From: Flavobacteriaceae bacterium
GTDB taxonomy: Bacteria; Bacteroidota; Bacteroidia; Flavobacteriales; Flavobacteriaceae
Reading direction: 5' to 3'
Length of the DNA: 64,000 nt
Assembly: GCA_018608625.1 (NCBI GenBank)
Contig: JABAZC010000071.1
Coordinates: 79,615-143,614, forward strand
Part shown: piece by piece, positions 4,010 through 12,007 of the stretch
How the letters are laid out: each line of letters begins with the position of its first letter
How positions within the stretch are numbered: the stretch's first letter is position 1
Translations under genes and position numbers: made by a program
The notes under the pieces: model-generated
The model's input: the letters and a program-made list of their open reading frames with translations, nothing else
Databases searched by the model: none
Told to the model about the DNA's origin: nothing

Positions 4010-4074
4010 GGTTTTTTGTGATACAAAGGTACGTATTACTTCCCATTCATAAATTAAAATTATTACATTTGAGC

Positions 4075-5136
4075 GTGATTAAAAAATTGAAATACCTAAT
4101 TATATTAAGTCTTTTACCCCAATACCTAGGGATATTATTTTTAAAAAACAACCCCGGTTTAGTGGAGCAGTATTACAGCACAGGCCTCTACCCTGTTATT
4201 TCTAAGCTACTAAACACTTCTTTTAAATGGAGCCCTGTATCATTTGGAGACTTGTTGTACATCGCAGCAATAATTTACATGAGTAAGTGGGTTGTCACAA
4301 ACTGGAAGCGCCTTAGAACTCAGCCTAGAGTCTGGGGGCTGGATGTTTTAACATTAGTATCAATTGTCTATTTTTTATTTCACTTATGCTGGGGGCTTAA
4401 CTACTACCGCGAGTCTTTGCATGTAACCTTAAGCCTTAAACCAACTTACACGACAGAAGAACTAAAAATAATCACAAGTAAGCTGGTACTAAAAACAAAT
4501 AGCCTGCACTTAAGTATTACTAATGATTCCCTTCAAAAAATCGACACCCCTTATTCATTTAATAAAATGGCTGCCCTTAGTCAACAGGGCTATAAACAGC
4601 TTGAAACTGTGTACCCTATTTTTGGACATCCTGGTCAAAATACTAAAAAATCACTATTTAGCACCCCCCTAACCTATATGGGTTTTGGCGGCTATCTCAA
4701 TCCATTTACGCTAGAAGCGCAAGTTAACAGTGTCATACCAAAATCAAGCATGCTAACCACGATCGCACATGAACAAGCCCACCAATTGGGCTATGCCGCA
4801 GAAAATGAAGCAAATTTTATTGGATTTCTAGCCTGTATTCACAATAAAGACCTTTTCTATCAATATGCAGGTTATGCGTTTGCATTGCGCTATTGTTTAC
4901 AAGAGATGAGTAGAAGAGACATCGATTTTTATAAAAACACAGTCAAATCAATACACCCAGGAATCTTAAAAAACTTCCAAGAAACTTCAGAGTTTTGGAA
5001 GGCTTACAATAACCCACTTGAACCACTCATTAAAAATTTTTACAATAATTTCTTAAAAGCTAATAATCAAGAAAAAGGAATAGAAAGTTATAGTTACGTC
5101 GTAGCATTATTGGTGGATTATTTACATAATAAATAA
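4075..5136 (+). CDS. DUF3810 domain-containing membrane protein (probable zinc-peptidase-like)
   Basis: N-terminal TM segments and HEQAHQLGYAAENEANF (HExxH). The GTG at 4075 (VIKKLKYLIILSLL) is a better start than the tool's 4018. Confidence 0.75.
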   Translation: MIKKLKYLIILSLLPQYLGILFLKNNPGLVEQYYSTGLYPVISKLLNTSFKWSPVSFGDLLYIAAIIYMSKWVVTNWKRLRTQPRVWGLDVLTLVSIVYFLFHLCWGLNYYRESLHVTLSLKPTYTTEELKIITSKLVLKTNSLHLSITNDSLQKIDTPYSFNKMAALSQQGYKQLETVYPIFGHPGQNTKKSLFSTPLTYMGFGGYLNPFTLEAQVNSVIPKSSMLTTIAHEQAHQLGYAAENEANFIGFLACIHNKDLFYQYAGYAFALRYCLQEMSRRDIDFYKNTVKSIHPGILKNFQETSEFWKAYNNPLEPLIKNFYNNFLKANNQEKGIESYSYVVALLVDYLHNK

Positions 5137-5186: not shown

Positions 5187-6593
5187 ATGAAATTAATTAC
5201 CTTTCTTTTATTAATTAATTTTACAAATTTACAATCACATGAAGCTTTAGACAACGACGTTAAAGGGTCATCTATCTTTTCTTACTCAGAAATAGAACTA
5301 CATAAAATAACGGATCGAAAATCAGAAAAAGACCTACTAATTTCAATACTAATACATTCTAAATGGAGTAACTTTAATTCCATTATAAAATTGTCGACTA
5401 CTGACCTAAGGGCACTCTTAATTTCAGAGCTCAATATCCGCACAAATGAAAAAATTAACGTTTTAAGTAGCAAAACTAATATTGAATTAACCACTTTTTG
5501 TTTAGTTTACACCTTTTTAAAAACAGCAACCGTCCGTACTGAAAGTAAATTACAGGAAATGTTTCTTACTGATCTTCGAAACACCTTAATTATTGAAAAT
5601 GAGAAGCATTTAAATAAAACCATAAACACCCTGCAAACCCTAACCACAAAAAAGCTTGTGCAGTTAGGATACAGTTGGTACCTTCCTAAAACCTATAACT
5701 ACTTTATTAATTTTAATTTGAGTCAAAGATCAACAAAACCATTACGATCTAAATTTAAGTTAAAAGATGATTTAGGAAGACGTATGAATGTTATTAAAAT
5801 TGTAAAAACGAACGAGAATGGTCCTCATAAATATCCTTATTTAGGGCTATATCATATAAGAGTTTCAGAAGATGATTTTAACCTACAATTAGCAGGCTCA
5901 AATGACCTGTTTAACTGGAACTTCATCACTGAAATTGATTACAATGCTCACCAGGGTGATATCGTAAAATGGAACGACGGTTACCTTATCGCTTATGAAG
6001 AAGATAAAACCCAAGGGGTTAATAATATTGCATTAAAATATTACATGGATTATGATAGTTTAATATCTAATCACAGTACCTATGACAAACATCTAAATAC
6101 ATCAATACATAGATTCGGAGTTGAAGGAACTCCAGATATCAGAAATTTTTCGGGGGAATCTCCCACAAATGGAAACATACAAATTGGGTTTCATTATTAT
6201 GACGGCACTATCGATAAATTAGCCATGGGAGTTTTACAAAATGGGGAGACTTGGACTGCATGTAAAGATGCATTATCTGAAATTAATTTAAGAGCTATGA
6301 ATTTCAAAGGGAATATTGGAAGTCGAAAAGGGTTTCAATATCAAGATGAATTGCTAACCTTACAGGAAGCTAGGTTTGTGAAGGGCGATTGGAGTACCTG
6401 GAAAATCATGTTAGGCCTTAATGGGTATTATACTGAAGTTTTAATTTCTACCCCAAAAGGATCTAAATCCTTTGCTAATCCATCAATAACTGAAATCGAC
6501 ACTAATAAATACGCTATTTCACTATTCCTTCCTACAGAAGGAAATCATTTTAGAGAAAACAATGGTGGAGTCATTTTTTTAAATAATAAATAA
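5187..6593 (+). CDS. Secreted protein with C-terminal five-bladed beta-propeller (GH43-like/sialidase-like) region
   Basis: Signal peptide MKLITFLLLINFTNLQS. C-terminal half has repeated propeller-like segments (YPYLGLYHIRVSEDDFNLQLAGSNDLFNWNF, HQGDIVKWNDGYLIAYEED, ANPSITEIDTNKYAISLF). Confidence 0.5.
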   Translation: MKLITFLLLINFTNLQSHEALDNDVKGSSIFSYSEIELHKITDRKSEKDLLISILIHSKWSNFNSIIKLSTTDLRALLISELNIRTNEKINVLSSKTNIELTTFCLVYTFLKTATVRTESKLQEMFLTDLRNTLIIENEKHLNKTINTLQTLTTKKLVQLGYSWYLPKTYNYFINFNLSQRSTKPLRSKFKLKDDLGRRMNVIKIVKTNENGPHKYPYLGLYHIRVSEDDFNLQLAGSNDLFNWNFITEIDYNAHQGDIVKWNDGYLIAYEEDKTQGVNNIALKYYMDYDSLISNHSTYDKHLNTSIHRFGVEGTPDIRNFSGESPTNGNIQIGFHYYDGTIDKLAMGVLQNGETWTACKDALSEINLRAMNFKGNIGSRKGFQYQDELLTLQEARFVKGDWSTWKIMLGLNGYYTEVLISTPKGSKSFANPSITEIDTNKYAISLFLPTEGNHFRENNGGVIFLNNK

Positions 6594-6609: not shown

Positions 6610-7584
6610 ATGAACAAACAAAAACTTTTATTCACTCTTTGCTTAATATTGACAATACACCATGCCTCAGCGCAAGTATGCAACGAGGAGCCAAGGTTCA
6701 CCAATACCGACTATTTTTCAAATATTCAGATTGATTCCCTTAAAAATATAACCTATGGCGAGGCTACAAATTACAAGGGGAATTCACAAGATTTAAAAAT
6801 GGATGTCTATTTTCCAAACACTGAATTAGACACGCTAAAAAAGCGACCTTTTATACTTTTGATTCACGGAGGTGGATTTACAGGTGGTACTAGAGAAAGA
6901 ATGACTTATCACTCTGTAGAGCTATCTAAAAGAGGATTTGTAGTGGCCACAATAAGTTATCGTCTGGGCTACGATGTAGAGATTTTTGGCAGCATCCAAA
7001 AAGCAGTATATAGAGCTCAACAAGATGCCAATACAGCACTTCGATATATAGCTAGTCAAAAAGAAATACTAAAAATTGATACTGAATGGTTTTTTATTGG
7101 AGGATCAAGTGCTGGGGCGGTTACCTCACTGTCTACGAGCTATGCAAGTCAAGCAGAATGGAATCAAATAGCACCTGAATTTGAGTCTGATTTAGGCCTA
7201 TTAGAATCTTCAAATAATAGTTTAAATGAAATTTTTACAATCAAAGGTATCTACAACTTCATGGGAGCTATTCCACCGGTTGTCTTTAATTCAGGAAACT
7301 TAATCCCAACCATCTCATTTCATGGAGATTTAGATACGACCGTCCCTATCGGAAAAAATATAATGACAGGCTTTGGATCAAGACCTATTCATGAATTACT
7401 TTCGAAGGCTGGTGTTTGCAACGACCTAACAGTGGTCCCGGACGGAGGGCATGGCATATACAGATCCAAAAGAGACGTTGACTTTAGAATTAACCGGGTT
7501 GCTTGTTTCTTCAAAAGCTTGATTTGTAACAGATGTGTAGACTTTATGGCAGAAGAAAGCATTCCGGCCATATGTACTAATTAA
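6610..7584 (+). CDS. Secreted alpha/beta hydrolase (carboxylesterase-type)
   Basis: Signal peptide ending SAQ; oxyanion HGGGFTGG; nucleophile elbow GGSSAGA; C-terminal D and GGHG. Confidence 0.85.
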   Translation: MNKQKLLFTLCLILTIHHASAQVCNEEPRFTNTDYFSNIQIDSLKNITYGEATNYKGNSQDLKMDVYFPNTELDTLKKRPFILLIHGGGFTGGTRERMTYHSVELSKRGFVVATISYRLGYDVEIFGSIQKAVYRAQQDANTALRYIASQKEILKIDTEWFFIGGSSAGAVTSLSTSYASQAEWNQIAPEFESDLGLLESSNNSLNEIFTIKGIYNFMGAIPPVVFNSGNLIPTISFHGDLDTTVPIGKNIMTGFGSRPIHELLSKAGVCNDLTVVPDGGHGIYRSKRDVDFRINRVACFFKSLICNRCVDFMAEESIPAICTN

Positions 7585-7789: not shown

Positions 7790-7796
7790 ATAAGAA

Positions 7797-8903
7797 ATTC
7801 AAAATTCAAAAAAAATACTAGTTGCTTGTTTGTTAATGCTCGTTACAACCCAATATACGGACGTTGTACTTGCTCAATGTGAAGAGGTCACAATTGATAG
7901 TTTATCTAATCCTGGACCATTTGAGGTACAAACACTCAATGAGTCTGATGGAATTCGAAATGGACCTGACTATTTTGGAGCCACTATCTACTACCCTATA
8001 AATGCCAGCCCACCATTTGCAAGTATTGCAATTGTTCCTGGTTTCATATCAGGCCCTTCAACTGTAGCAGAATGGGGAGTGTTTTATGCCTCACACGGAA
8101 TAGTAACTATTATTGTAGGAACAAACAGTCTTTATGATTTCCCAGAAGCCCGAGCCTATGCCTTATTGGATGCTCTAGAAACTATTAGAATAGAAAATAG
8201 CAGAGCGAATTCACCACTAGAAAACGCTCTTAATTTAGATCAATTAGCCGTCAGTGGGTGGTCCATGGGTGGTGGTGGTGCTCAAAGAGCAGCGGTCCTA
8301 GATAATAGAATTTCTGGAGTTATCGCATTGTGTCCTTGGTTAACAAACACTAATCTAAACCACGAAAGCTCCGTATTAATTTTTAGTGGCGAAAACGACA
8401 CTACTGCCCCTGCTGAATTACATGCAGACATTCATTATAATTCCACACCAAACGAAAATAACAAACTCCTTTTCGAAATTGAAAATGGAAATCATTCTGT
8501 GGCTAACTCTCCAAATGGAGGTAATGGTATCATTGGAAAAATAGCACTTTCATGGCTAAAACTATATGTAGAGCATAATGACTGCTATTGTCCATTACTC
8601 ACAGAAAATCTTTTAGAAAACCCAGCTGAGGCCTCTAGGGTTGAAGACAATTTTGAATGTGAACTACTTGGAATTAATACGACACAACTGTCTATTAAAG
8701 TGTATCCAAACCCCACAAATAACCTAATTAACTTAAAAATAAATGAGAACGTTGACTACGAACTTATTTCTCCTCTAGGTCAGCGCATATTTAAAGGCAC
8801 TCTTAGAGGCTTAAACAAACAAATTAACTTATCCCAACTCGACCAGGGATTGTATTACTTATGTATGAATAATCAAACAATTAAAGTAATAAAGCAAAAT
8901 TAA
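7797..8903 (+). CDS. PETase/cutinase-like polyester hydrolase (dienelactone-hydrolase fold) with type IX secretion C-terminal sorting domain
   Basis: SHGIVTIIVGTN, GWSMGGGG nucleophile elbow, CPW, GENDTTAP (Asp), NGNHSVAN (His), C-terminal Cys pair, then VYPNPTNNLINLKI...LSQLDQGLYYLCMNNQTIKVIKQN sorting domain. The ORF track starts at TTG 7830, but the signal-peptide reading extends upstream to ATT 7797. Confidence 0.8.
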   Translation: MQNSKKILVACLLMLVTTQYTDVVLAQCEEVTIDSLSNPGPFEVQTLNESDGIRNGPDYFGATIYYPINASPPFASIAIVPGFISGPSTVAEWGVFYASHGIVTIIVGTNSLYDFPEARAYALLDALETIRIENSRANSPLENALNLDQLAVSGWSMGGGGAQRAAVLDNRISGVIALCPWLTNTNLNHESSVLIFSGENDTTAPAELHADIHYNSTPNENNKLLFEIENGNHSVANSPNGGNGIIGKIALSWLKLYVEHNDCYCPLLTENLLENPAEASRVEDNFECELLGINTTQLSIKVYPNPTNNLINLKINENVDYELISPLGQRIFKGTLRGLNKQINLSQLDQGLYYLCMNNQTIKVIKQN

Positions 8904-9028
8904 TTAGTTGGGTGTTTAATTTTATTAATAGAGCGCTCTTTGTTTGTCTCAATTTTAAAAATATATTAATTATAGTTTTTCATTTAAAGTTTATACCTAA
9001 ATTTATAAACTATCTATAATTATATATT

Positions 9029-12007
9029 ATGTTAAAAAAACTTTTATCTATTAGTGTGTTTTTTGTTGCTCTTTCGTTGTCAGCACAAGATTATTTCCCA
9101 AAGAACGATGGCGTGAAATCAAAAAATACAAATTTCACAGCTTTAGTTAATGCTAAAATTTTCATCACCCCTACAAATCAGGTTGAAAATGGAGTTTTAC
9201 TAATTCAAGAAGGTCGCGTGATTCAAGTAGGAGCAGAAGTTAAACTGCCTCAGAATACCGTAATAATTGATTTAAAAGGAAAATCTATATACCCTTCTTT
9301 TATAGATATTTATTCTGATTTTGGAATTGCAAAAACCAAACGTAAAAGTGGTGTCTCACGCTCCGCTCAATACGGGCCAAGTCGAGAAGGTTTTTACTGG
9401 AATGATCACGTACGTCCGGAACAAAATGCAATCGACCAGTTTAAATATGATGACAAAACTGCTAAAAGCTTATTAGAAGCAGGTTTTGGAGTGGTCAACA
9501 CCCACATTCAAGACGGAATTGTACGTGGAACAGGTGCCTTAATTGCTTTAGATTCAAAAGGGTCTGATTCGCAGCGCATCTTGTCTGACCAGTCGGTACA
9601 GTACACATCCTTTTCAAAAAGTGTGCTTTCTCAACAATCATATCCATCTTCTATTATGGGTGCAATGGCTTTATTAAGACAACTTAATCACGATTCAGAA
9701 TGGTACAAAAAAGGGAACATTCCAACTAAAGACCGCTCTATAGAAGCCTTTAATCAACATAAAAAAAAGGTACAGATTTTTGAGGCTGGTAGCAGAGCAA
9801 ATGCCCTGAGAGCTGATGCCGTAGGAGACGACTTTGGAGTTCAGTATGTTATTTTGGGTGGTGGTGATGAGTACGAACGTATCAACGATATCAAAAACAC
9901 ACAAGCTACGTTTATCCTCCCTTTAAACTTTCCAAAAGCTTATAATGTTGAAGATTCTTTTTTAACAAATTCGTTGGAGTTGGAGGCGATGAAAGAATGG
10001 AACCAACGACCTGGAAATCCCGTGGCTTTAGATTTATCTGGAGTGTCGTTTGCATTTACAACAAAGGGATTAAAATCTATGAAAGACTTTAAGACTAACC
10101 TATTGAAATCCATTGAGTATGGATTGGACAAGGTCACTGCTCTAGAAGCCTTAACCTCACAGCCTTCGAAAATTTTAGGAAACTCAAAACTTGGTAATTT
10201 AAATATTGATAGCTACGCAAATTTCTTAATTACTTCAGGAGATATATTTGAAGCTGAAACAACCCTTTATGAAAATTGGGTTAATGGTTCAAGAACGATC
10301 ATTACCCCTCTTTCCAAAACTGATCTTAGAGGAGACTACTATTTTTCAATAAATAAAGACTCCTATAAACTAAAAATCAGTGGTACATTAATTAAACTTA
10401 AATCAGAAGTGACATCAGATTCATTGAAATTAAGTAGTAGTTTAAACTATAAGAATGATTGGATGCATTTAATGTTTTCATCTAAAGACACTACAAATCA
10501 AGAATTTATAAGATTGAATGCTAAAATTTTATCAACTATAAAATCGATAAAAGGAAAAGCAACCTTAGTGGACGGCTCTACCCCTAATGTAGAACTGAAA
10601 AAAGTAGTAGACACGAGCAAAACATCAAAACCAGAGATGAAGAAGAAAGAGCTTCCTTTTCCAGTCATAGTCCCTGTTAGTTATCCAAATGGTGCCTATG
10701 GGTTTTCAAAACTCCCAGAAGCAGAGACACTCTTATTTAAAAATGCAACGGTTTGGACCAATGAGTCCGAAGGTATTCTAGAGGCTACAGATGTATTAGT
10801 TCATAATGGTTTAATTTCAAAAATTGGGAAAAATATTAAAAGTAAAAAAGCAGTAGTAATCGATGCAACTGGAAAGCATTTAACAACTGGAATTGTAGAT
10901 GAACATTCGCACATAGCGGCTGCTAGTATTAATGAAGGAGGTCAAAATTCTTCAGCAGAAGTAAGTATTGAAGATGTAATTGACGCTGATGACATTGATA
11001 TTTATCGAAATTTAGCAGGCGGCGTAACTTCAATTCAGATTTTACATGGTTCTGCCAATCCTATCGGAGGTCGCTCCGCTATTATTAAGTTAAAATGGGG
11101 GGCGTCGGCAAAAGAATTGATTTATAATGAAAGTCCTAAGTTTATAAAGTTTGCTTTGGGAGAAAACGTAAAACAATCTAATTGGGGCAGCTACAGTAGG
11201 TTTCCACAAACGCGAATGGGAGTTGAACAACTTTACATTGATTATTTTACAAGAGCAAAAGCATATGATGCCAAACAAAAAAGTGGAAAACCGTACCGCA
11301 AAGATGTTGAAATGCAGGTTCTTGCTCAAATTCTTAATAAAGAACGCTTTATTAGTTGCCACTCCTATATACAAAGCGAAATTAATATGCTAATAAAAGT
11401 CGCTGAAAAATTTGATTTCAACATTAATACCTTCACACATATTTTGGAAGGCTACAAAGTAGCTGATAAGATGAAAGCTCACGGAGTTGGCGCCTCAACT
11501 TTTAGTGATTGGTGGGCCTATAAATTCGAAGTGAATGATGCAATTCCCTACAATGCGTCGATATTAAACGCTATGGGCGTTGTAACCGCTATCAATAGTG
11601 ATGATGCCGAAATGTCTCGACGCCTTAACCAAGAAGCTGCGAAGGCCGTAAAATATGGCGGCACCTCTGAACAAGACGCCTGGAAAATGGTCACACTTAA
11701 CCCTGCAAAACTACTTCATATCGACCATCGTGTGGGTAGTATTAAGGTAGGGAAAGATGCCGATCTTGTACTTTGGAGCCATCACCCATTATCAATTTAT
11801 GCGAAAGCTGAAAAAACACTAATTGAAGGTGCGACCTATTTTGATAGTGAACGGGATCAAAAGATAAGAACTTCTATTCAGTCTGAAAGAAACATACTCA
11901 TAGAAATGATGTTAAAAGAAAAAAATAAAGGTATGAAAACACAGCCAATTAAGAAAAAAGATAAACAGTTACTTCACTGTGATTCTATGCATTTTAATCA
12001 ACTATAA
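9029..12007 (+). CDS. Secreted two-domain amidohydrolase
   Basis: Signal peptide ending LSAQ. C-terminal amidohydrolase with GIVDEHSHIAA, CHSYIQSE, THILEGYK, NSDDAEM and GSIKVGKDADLVLW. The N-terminal copy has a related composite-domain start. Confidence 0.88.
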   Translation: MLKKLLSISVFFVALSLSAQDYFPKNDGVKSKNTNFTALVNAKIFITPTNQVENGVLLIQEGRVIQVGAEVKLPQNTVIIDLKGKSIYPSFIDIYSDFGIAKTKRKSGVSRSAQYGPSREGFYWNDHVRPEQNAIDQFKYDDKTAKSLLEAGFGVVNTHIQDGIVRGTGALIALDSKGSDSQRILSDQSVQYTSFSKSVLSQQSYPSSIMGAMALLRQLNHDSEWYKKGNIPTKDRSIEAFNQHKKKVQIFEAGSRANALRADAVGDDFGVQYVILGGGDEYERINDIKNTQATFILPLNFPKAYNVEDSFLTNSLELEAMKEWNQRPGNPVALDLSGVSFAFTTKGLKSMKDFKTNLLKSIEYGLDKVTALEALTSQPSKILGNSKLGNLNIDSYANFLITSGDIFEAETTLYENWVNGSRTIITPLSKTDLRGDYYFSINKDSYKLKISGTLIKLKSEVTSDSLKLSSSLNYKNDWMHLMFSSKDTTNQEFIRLNAKILSTIKSIKGKATLVDGSTPNVELKKVVDTSKTSKPEMKKKELPFPVIVPVSYPNGAYGFSKLPEAETLLFKNATVWTNESEGILEATDVLVHNGLISKIGKNIKSKKAVVIDATGKHLTTGIVDEHSHIAAASINEGGQNSSAEVSIEDVIDADDIDIYRNLAGGVTSIQILHGSANPIGGRSAIIKLKWGASAKELIYNESPKFIKFALGENVKQSNWGSYSRFPQTRMGVEQLYIDYFTRAKAYDAKQKSGKPYRKDVEMQVLAQILNKERFISCHSYIQSEINMLIKVAEKFDFNINTFTHILEGYKVADKMKAHGVGASTFSDWWAYKFEVNDAIPYNASILNAMGVVTAINSDDAEMSRRLNQEAAKAVKYGGTSEQDAWKMVTLNPAKLLHIDHRVGSIKVGKDADLVLWSHHPLSIYAKAEKTLIEGATYFDSERDQKIRTSIQSERNILIEMMLKEKNKGMKTQPIKKKDKQLLHCDSMHFNQL

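Follow-up and report, generated by a model that had tools for sequence, protein, structure and literature searches.

Close described relatives of the locus studied here are the esterases PET27, PET28, PET29, and PET30, all of which hydrolyze pNP-C6/C10, TBT, PCL, BHET, and Impranil (PMC8767016). Two of them, PET27 and PET30, also acted on PET foil and freed TPA from it; the reported amounts were 174 nmol for PET27, 3 for PET30, and 811 for IsPETase (PMC8767016). PET28 and PET29, which are T9SS-tagged and have a Phe-Met-Trp clamp, hydrolyze PCL and BHET and do not attack PET (PMC8767016). PET turnover by the homologues considered here is regarded as a side reaction (PMC8767016). A 2025 marine survey found activity solely in enzymes bearing a DxDxR(Y)xxFxC ("M5") tail (PMC12224614). 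These two sources disagree in part, since PET27 has no such tail and yet was reported to be active.

Start codons other than ATG, GTG, and TTG are well documented for infC, which begins with ATT in E. coli and ATC in Streptomyces (PMC5472188). Here we describe a PETase-like gene that probably also starts with such a codon. It lies in a 64,000-nucleotide stretch of flavobacterial DNA (the window, meaning the whole stretch analyzed) that belongs to a draft genome of 1.9 Mb in 92 contigs with 90.7% completeness.

A T9SS-tagged esterase of the PET27/PET30 group

The first-pass annotation of the window had proposed a secreted PETase-like polyester hydrolase at 7797–8903. We found all of its listed motifs at the positions it gave, in a single open frame that holds GWSMGGGG, CPW (Trp181), HSVAN, a CYC...FEC segment (C263, C265, C288), and VYPNPTNN. 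The coordinates stand as a reading frame (Table 1). They do not stand as a gene with a canonical start, since the opening codon at 7797–7799 is ATT. We numbered residues from this codon, and Ser156, Asp201, and His233 are thus encoded at 8262–8264, 8397–8399, and 8493–8495.

Table 1. Positions of the esterase gene, its parts, and the neighboring genes in the window.
Feature	Position	Strand	Details
PETase-like T9SS-secreted esterase gene	7797..8903	+	368 codons, proposed ATT start to TAA
Putative start codon ATT (non-canonical)	7797..7799	+	Sole near-cognate codon between in-frame stop TAA 7791-7793 and signal peptide n-region
Sec signal peptide, 27 aa, KKILVACLLMLV...VVLAQ	7797..7877	+	Aligns with signal peptides of all homologues
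Catalytic alpha/beta-hydrolase domain PF12740	7878..8663	+	Phe83, Trp155, Ser156, Met157, Trp181, Asp201, His233; predicted disulfide Cys265-Cys288
T9SS type A C-terminal sorting domain	8700..8900	+	PF18962 / TIGR04183
Adjacent secreted BD-FAE/HSL-type esterase	6610..7584	+	PF20434, 65.9 bits
DUF3810 gene, conserved left border of island	4018..5136	+	
Amidohydrolase gene, conserved right border of island	9029..12007	+	

The product of this frame matched the PETase family PF12740 with 178.4 bits (cut-off 28) and Por_Secre_tail with 37 bits (cut-off 27) in Pfam, and TIGR04183 with 37.7 bits (cut-off 23) in NCBIfam. These motif and domain matches far exceed chance. The NCBIfam equivalog for the BHET hydrolase BdeA (NF051441) stayed below its cut-off (128.5 bits vs 520). 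Judged by charge and hydropathy, the protein has a Sec signal peptide only when translation is initiated no later than the Lys-Lys pair. The proposed status as T9SS cargo is borne out both by the two sorting-domain models and by the genome, which encodes SprA (2740 bits) and 27 T9SS sorting domains.

The annotation had also noted that the second disulfide of IsPETase is missing. This is correct, with Gly198 and Val235 occupying the sites of G195 and V232 in PET30, and both cysteines of the lone C-terminal disulfide (predicted C265/C288) are present. Two further cysteines lie outside the reported disulfide: Cys28 (7878–7880), the first residue past the signal peptide, is invariant across the family and Cys263 (8583–8585) is nearly so. 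These two might pair with each other.

The top PDB sequence match was 7PZJ (PET30 from Kaistella jeonii; E 8e-141), which covers residues 6–367 including the sorting domain, and the matches ranked below it scored about 300 bits lower. A profile of 25 homologues likewise put 7PZJ first. A full-length AlphaFold run with 16 close homologues gave a pLDDT of 49, and we used instead a model of the catalytic domain built with 25 diverse homologue rows, which had a pLDDT of 92. With this model the top Foldseek match was again 7PZJ (66% identity, TM 0.91, rmsd 1.2), followed by Ple629, PET44, LCC, and IsPETase at 32–36% identity, and no other hydrolase subfamily ranked first in the HMM and structure searches. 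Our genome scan also recovered the source strain of PET27, Aequorivita sp. CIP111184 (L005), whose 364-residue product is 65% identical to the window protein. In the tree, the window protein and three genus-mates formed a clade (support 100/99) inside an 11-row group (100/99) that joins PET27 at 94/89; the 20-row ingroup holding all of these had moderate support (90/88).

Together, the Pfam, NCBIfam, PDB, AlphaFold/Foldseek, and phylogenetic results uphold the family and the catalytic triad, and the suggested kinship with Bacteroidota PET hydrolases is now specific, the nearest characterized proteins being PET27 and PET30 (PMC8767016). The window protein is a member of this already described group, and its Ser-Asp-His esterase family is not new.

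Active site and likely substrates

All contact residues reported for PET30 (PMC8767016) map to the window protein at an offset of +3 (F83, W155, M157, W181, T203, H233). They differ only in having W181 for Y178, a substitution shared with PET27. The triad (S156, D201, H233) and clamp (F83, M157, W181) are those of the PET27/PET30 type, and the Phe-Met-Trp clamp is the one found in PET27, PET28, and PET29. Because PET27 differs from PET28 and PET29 in its action on PET with an identical clamp, the clamp residues do not foretell whether an enzyme attacks PET. Esterase activity is very likely and some activity on polyesters is likely, whereas activity on PET is uncertain. The natural substrate is probably something other than PET.

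Whether polyesters are cut at all bears on another reading, in which the protein is a general esterase or lipase, or a feruloyl-type esterase, that shares the fold and has zero polyester activity. Four proteins from the HMM screen behind PET27–PET30, namely PET38, PET53, PET57, and PET58, either showed no activity or were insoluble (PMC8767016), and the clamp residues vary among genus-mates, as this reading would allow: G010 has GHSMG and CPF, G008 and G012 have CPY, and the window has Trp. However, PCL, BHET, and Impranil were hydrolyzed by all four assayed members of the near clade (PET27–PET30), and we consider a complete lack of polyester activity improbable. The GHSMG variant of the GWSMG nucleophile elbow occurs in L027 (6268–7371; the G010 copy), L013, L014, L015, L016, L018, and L040, and these homologues are without the Trp that contacts substrate in PET30 and IsPETase.

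Exact spacing rules aside, the other elements of M5-PETases are present, namely PGF ([PG]G[YF]), GWSMGGGG, CPW, END, and NHS (PMC12224614). The M5 tail itself was not found in the window protein, which has EHNDCYCPLL, nor in PET27 or any homologue tested. A ring-hydroxylating dioxygenase alpha subunit (PF00848; Rieske) was not found in the 90.7% complete genome. Growth on terephthalate is therefore unlikely, with the proviso that the assembly lacks about 9% of the genome.

These results weigh on the idea that the enzyme is a dedicated PET degrader and that the organism lives on PET as a carbon source. The fold and Phe-Met-Trp cleft do resemble those of PET27, which has about one-fifth of the activity of IsPETase (PMC8767016). 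Against this, the missing PF00848 leaves no obvious route for TPA catabolism, the M5 tail is missing, PET turnover by homologues is seen as incidental, and the family is both old (dS 0.6–1.2 even inside the genus) and patchy. We regard a dedicated PET degrader as very improbable.

The four genus orthologues, from small draft genomes of about 1.6–1.9 Mb, enlarge the PET27/PET30 family. Their residues vary naturally (Trp, Tyr, Phe) at the clamp position where PET27 differs from the less active PET30, and this series could be useful for testing what gives esterases of this type their PET activity.

The start codon

No ATG, GTG, or TTG lies ahead of the signal peptide in any of the four genus copies, a feature shared with genes of the infC and sigR type, whose non-canonical start is controlled by IF3. 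The start regions are at 7791–7838 in the window, 6268 in L027, 3490 in L028, and 8137–8149 in L029. The window reads TAA GAA ATT CAA AAT TCA AAA AAA ATA, G010 reads ATT AAA AAT TTA AAA AAA ATA, and G008 reads ATT AAA AAT TTT AAT AAA ATA. G012 reads GTC AGA AAG TTA AAA AAA ATA and has an ATT four codons further up. Thus, the same codon is ATT in three copies and GTC in the fourth, and in the window and G010 an in-frame stop leaves one near-cognate codon before Lys-Lys. Sequencing error was rejected as the cause of the missing ATG, as four separate genomes concur.

Nearly all non-genus homologues with a readable signal peptide have an ATG just ahead of it; the exception, L042, has GTG, and the N-terminus of L016 was unreadable. 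By inspection of window ORFs of at least 120 codons with a signal peptide, the PETase-like gene alone has no canonical start ahead. These sequences are best read as having a non-canonical start, and an AUU start appears likely.

The first in-frame TTG (7830) and ATG (7836) of the window gene fall within the signal peptide, and translation from one of these would shorten the leader. Canonical codons occur there in the window (TTG, ATG), G010 (TTG, ATG), and G008 (GTG), but G012 has ATA at that place. Such a start would leave a leader of 14–16 aa that is weakly hydrophobic and has no positive n-region, and in every homologue the signal peptide aligns with the residues that would be discarded. 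We judge a downstream start unlikely.

The lack of ATG, GTG, and TTG ahead of the signal peptide in four of four copies could also mean that the gene is a pseudogene decaying in the genus after loss of its start codon, and the first 28 codons do have a higher dN/dS (0.37–0.64). Fast evolution is normal for signal peptides. The full frame, with triad and CTD, is intact in four species that have diverged to a dS of 0.6–1.2, a time over which a neutral 1.1-kb ORF would have broken. Because the whole-gene dN/dS is 0.13–0.16, the genus copies are not pseudogenes and the gene is maintained; we hold decay to be highly unlikely.

A non-canonical AUU start remains our preferred reading. In the genus, infC likewise has no ATG, GTG, or TTG at its N-terminus in the three members checked (L069, L070, L078), where the frame opens CTA AAA TAT AAA GCC ATA GCA ATA CGT AGA, and the start is probably AUA or another non-canonical codon. 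infC was not found in the draft genome of the window. Because it is present in 14 of 18 genus genomes, this looks like an assembly gap and not a loss of IF3.

Distribution and the two-esterase island

The PETase-like gene is patchily distributed, occurring in 15 of 400 sampled family genomes (12 of 237 genera) and in 4 of the 18 genus genomes. The same four genus genomes have a BD-FAE-type esterase gene that adjoins the PETase-like gene each time, and the other 14 have neither; in G008 the pair is cut by a contig end. In four pair-less genus genomes, the DUF3810 gene is followed by the amidohydrolase gene after about 150–220 bp, and the pair therefore fills a variable slot. In G012 the two esterase genes are about 35 bp apart, a spacing that suggests an operon.

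A general association of the two esterases was rejected, since none was found in the flanks (up to 6 kb) of non-genus homologues. The BD-FAE-type esterase occurs in one other of the 400 family genomes, where the PETase-like gene is absent. Recent plasmid transfer was also rejected because there was no close plasmid homologue, the best having about 35% identity.

Several other features of the region were observed. A 400-bp tract at approximately 8700–9100 covers the sorting domain, the space between the genes, and the first part of the gene that follows. It is 96–99% identical to G010 (L027), with about 70–87% identity on both sides, and probably reflects recent recombination between species. 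A 468-aa ORF at 5187–6593 had no family match over cut-off, and its counterpart in the slot is absent from G010 and G012. Another family member (G155; L041 and L044) has two tandem PETase-like T9SS genes with about 45% identity to the one in the window.

Discussion

Taken as a whole, the evidence is best explained by a serine carboxylesterase of the PET27/PET30 type, either secreted or attached to the cell surface, that is exported by the T9SS and probably starts with AUU, and we hold this with high confidence. Such a protein would carry a signal peptide when synthesized, pass through Sec, cross the outer membrane via the T9SS by means of its C-terminal domain, and act outside the cell. There, Ser156-His233-Asp201 would cut ester bonds in an open Phe-Met-Trp cleft. 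It probably acts on aliphatic polyesters of natural origin, or on lipid esters, that occur on marine particles, and cleavage of PET, PCL, or BHET would be promiscuous. If translation begins at the AUU, as seems most likely, expression may be low or dependent on IF3.

How this arrangement arose can be proposed with less assurance. In one genus clade the ancestral ATG may have been swapped for AUU (or AUU/GUC) and this change retained through speciation, with IF3 holding down synthesis in the way seen for infC or Streptomyces sigR, and with the two-esterase island gained or lost as a unit. We give this account slightly less than an even chance. If real, a gene under selection whose copies have all lost the canonical start would have few bacterial parallels besides infC. 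Such a loss would also account for the way automated annotation may shorten genes of this sort and overlook the signal peptides they encode. The initial assignment to a known family was sound, and the enzyme itself is ordinary as a discovery; what stands out is its start codon, together with the two-gene island. We found no report of either the genus island or the start-codon loss in the open-access PMC literature, which is not proof of novelty.

Other secreted flavobacterial alpha/beta-hydrolases with reported PET action are the dienelactone hydrolases PET93 and PET94 of Maribacter and Arenibacter, which are described as a different scaffold and lack a PorC domain (PMC13188925). IsPETase from Ideonella sakaiensis and the M5-PETases (PMC12224614) have the fold, triad, GWSMGGGG, and Trp clamp in common with the window protein (TM 0.86–0.88). 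However, identity is 34%, and the window protein has Phe for Tyr in the clamp, an added T9SS domain, and neither the active-site disulfide nor the DxDxR(Y)xxFxC tail. PET30 (7PZJ) is closer, with the same length, the same order of signal peptide, PETase domain, and PorC/T9SS tail, one C-terminal disulfide, and the Phe-Met part of the clamp, but its third clamp residue is Tyr178 where the window protein has Trp181. PET27 has an identical Phe-Met-Trp clamp, the same GENDxTAP and NHSVAN loops, and the CYC...FEC segment, in a protein with 65% overall identity. By contrast, the PET27 gene has a normal ATG start and other gene neighbors, and it sits on a neighboring branch of the tree.
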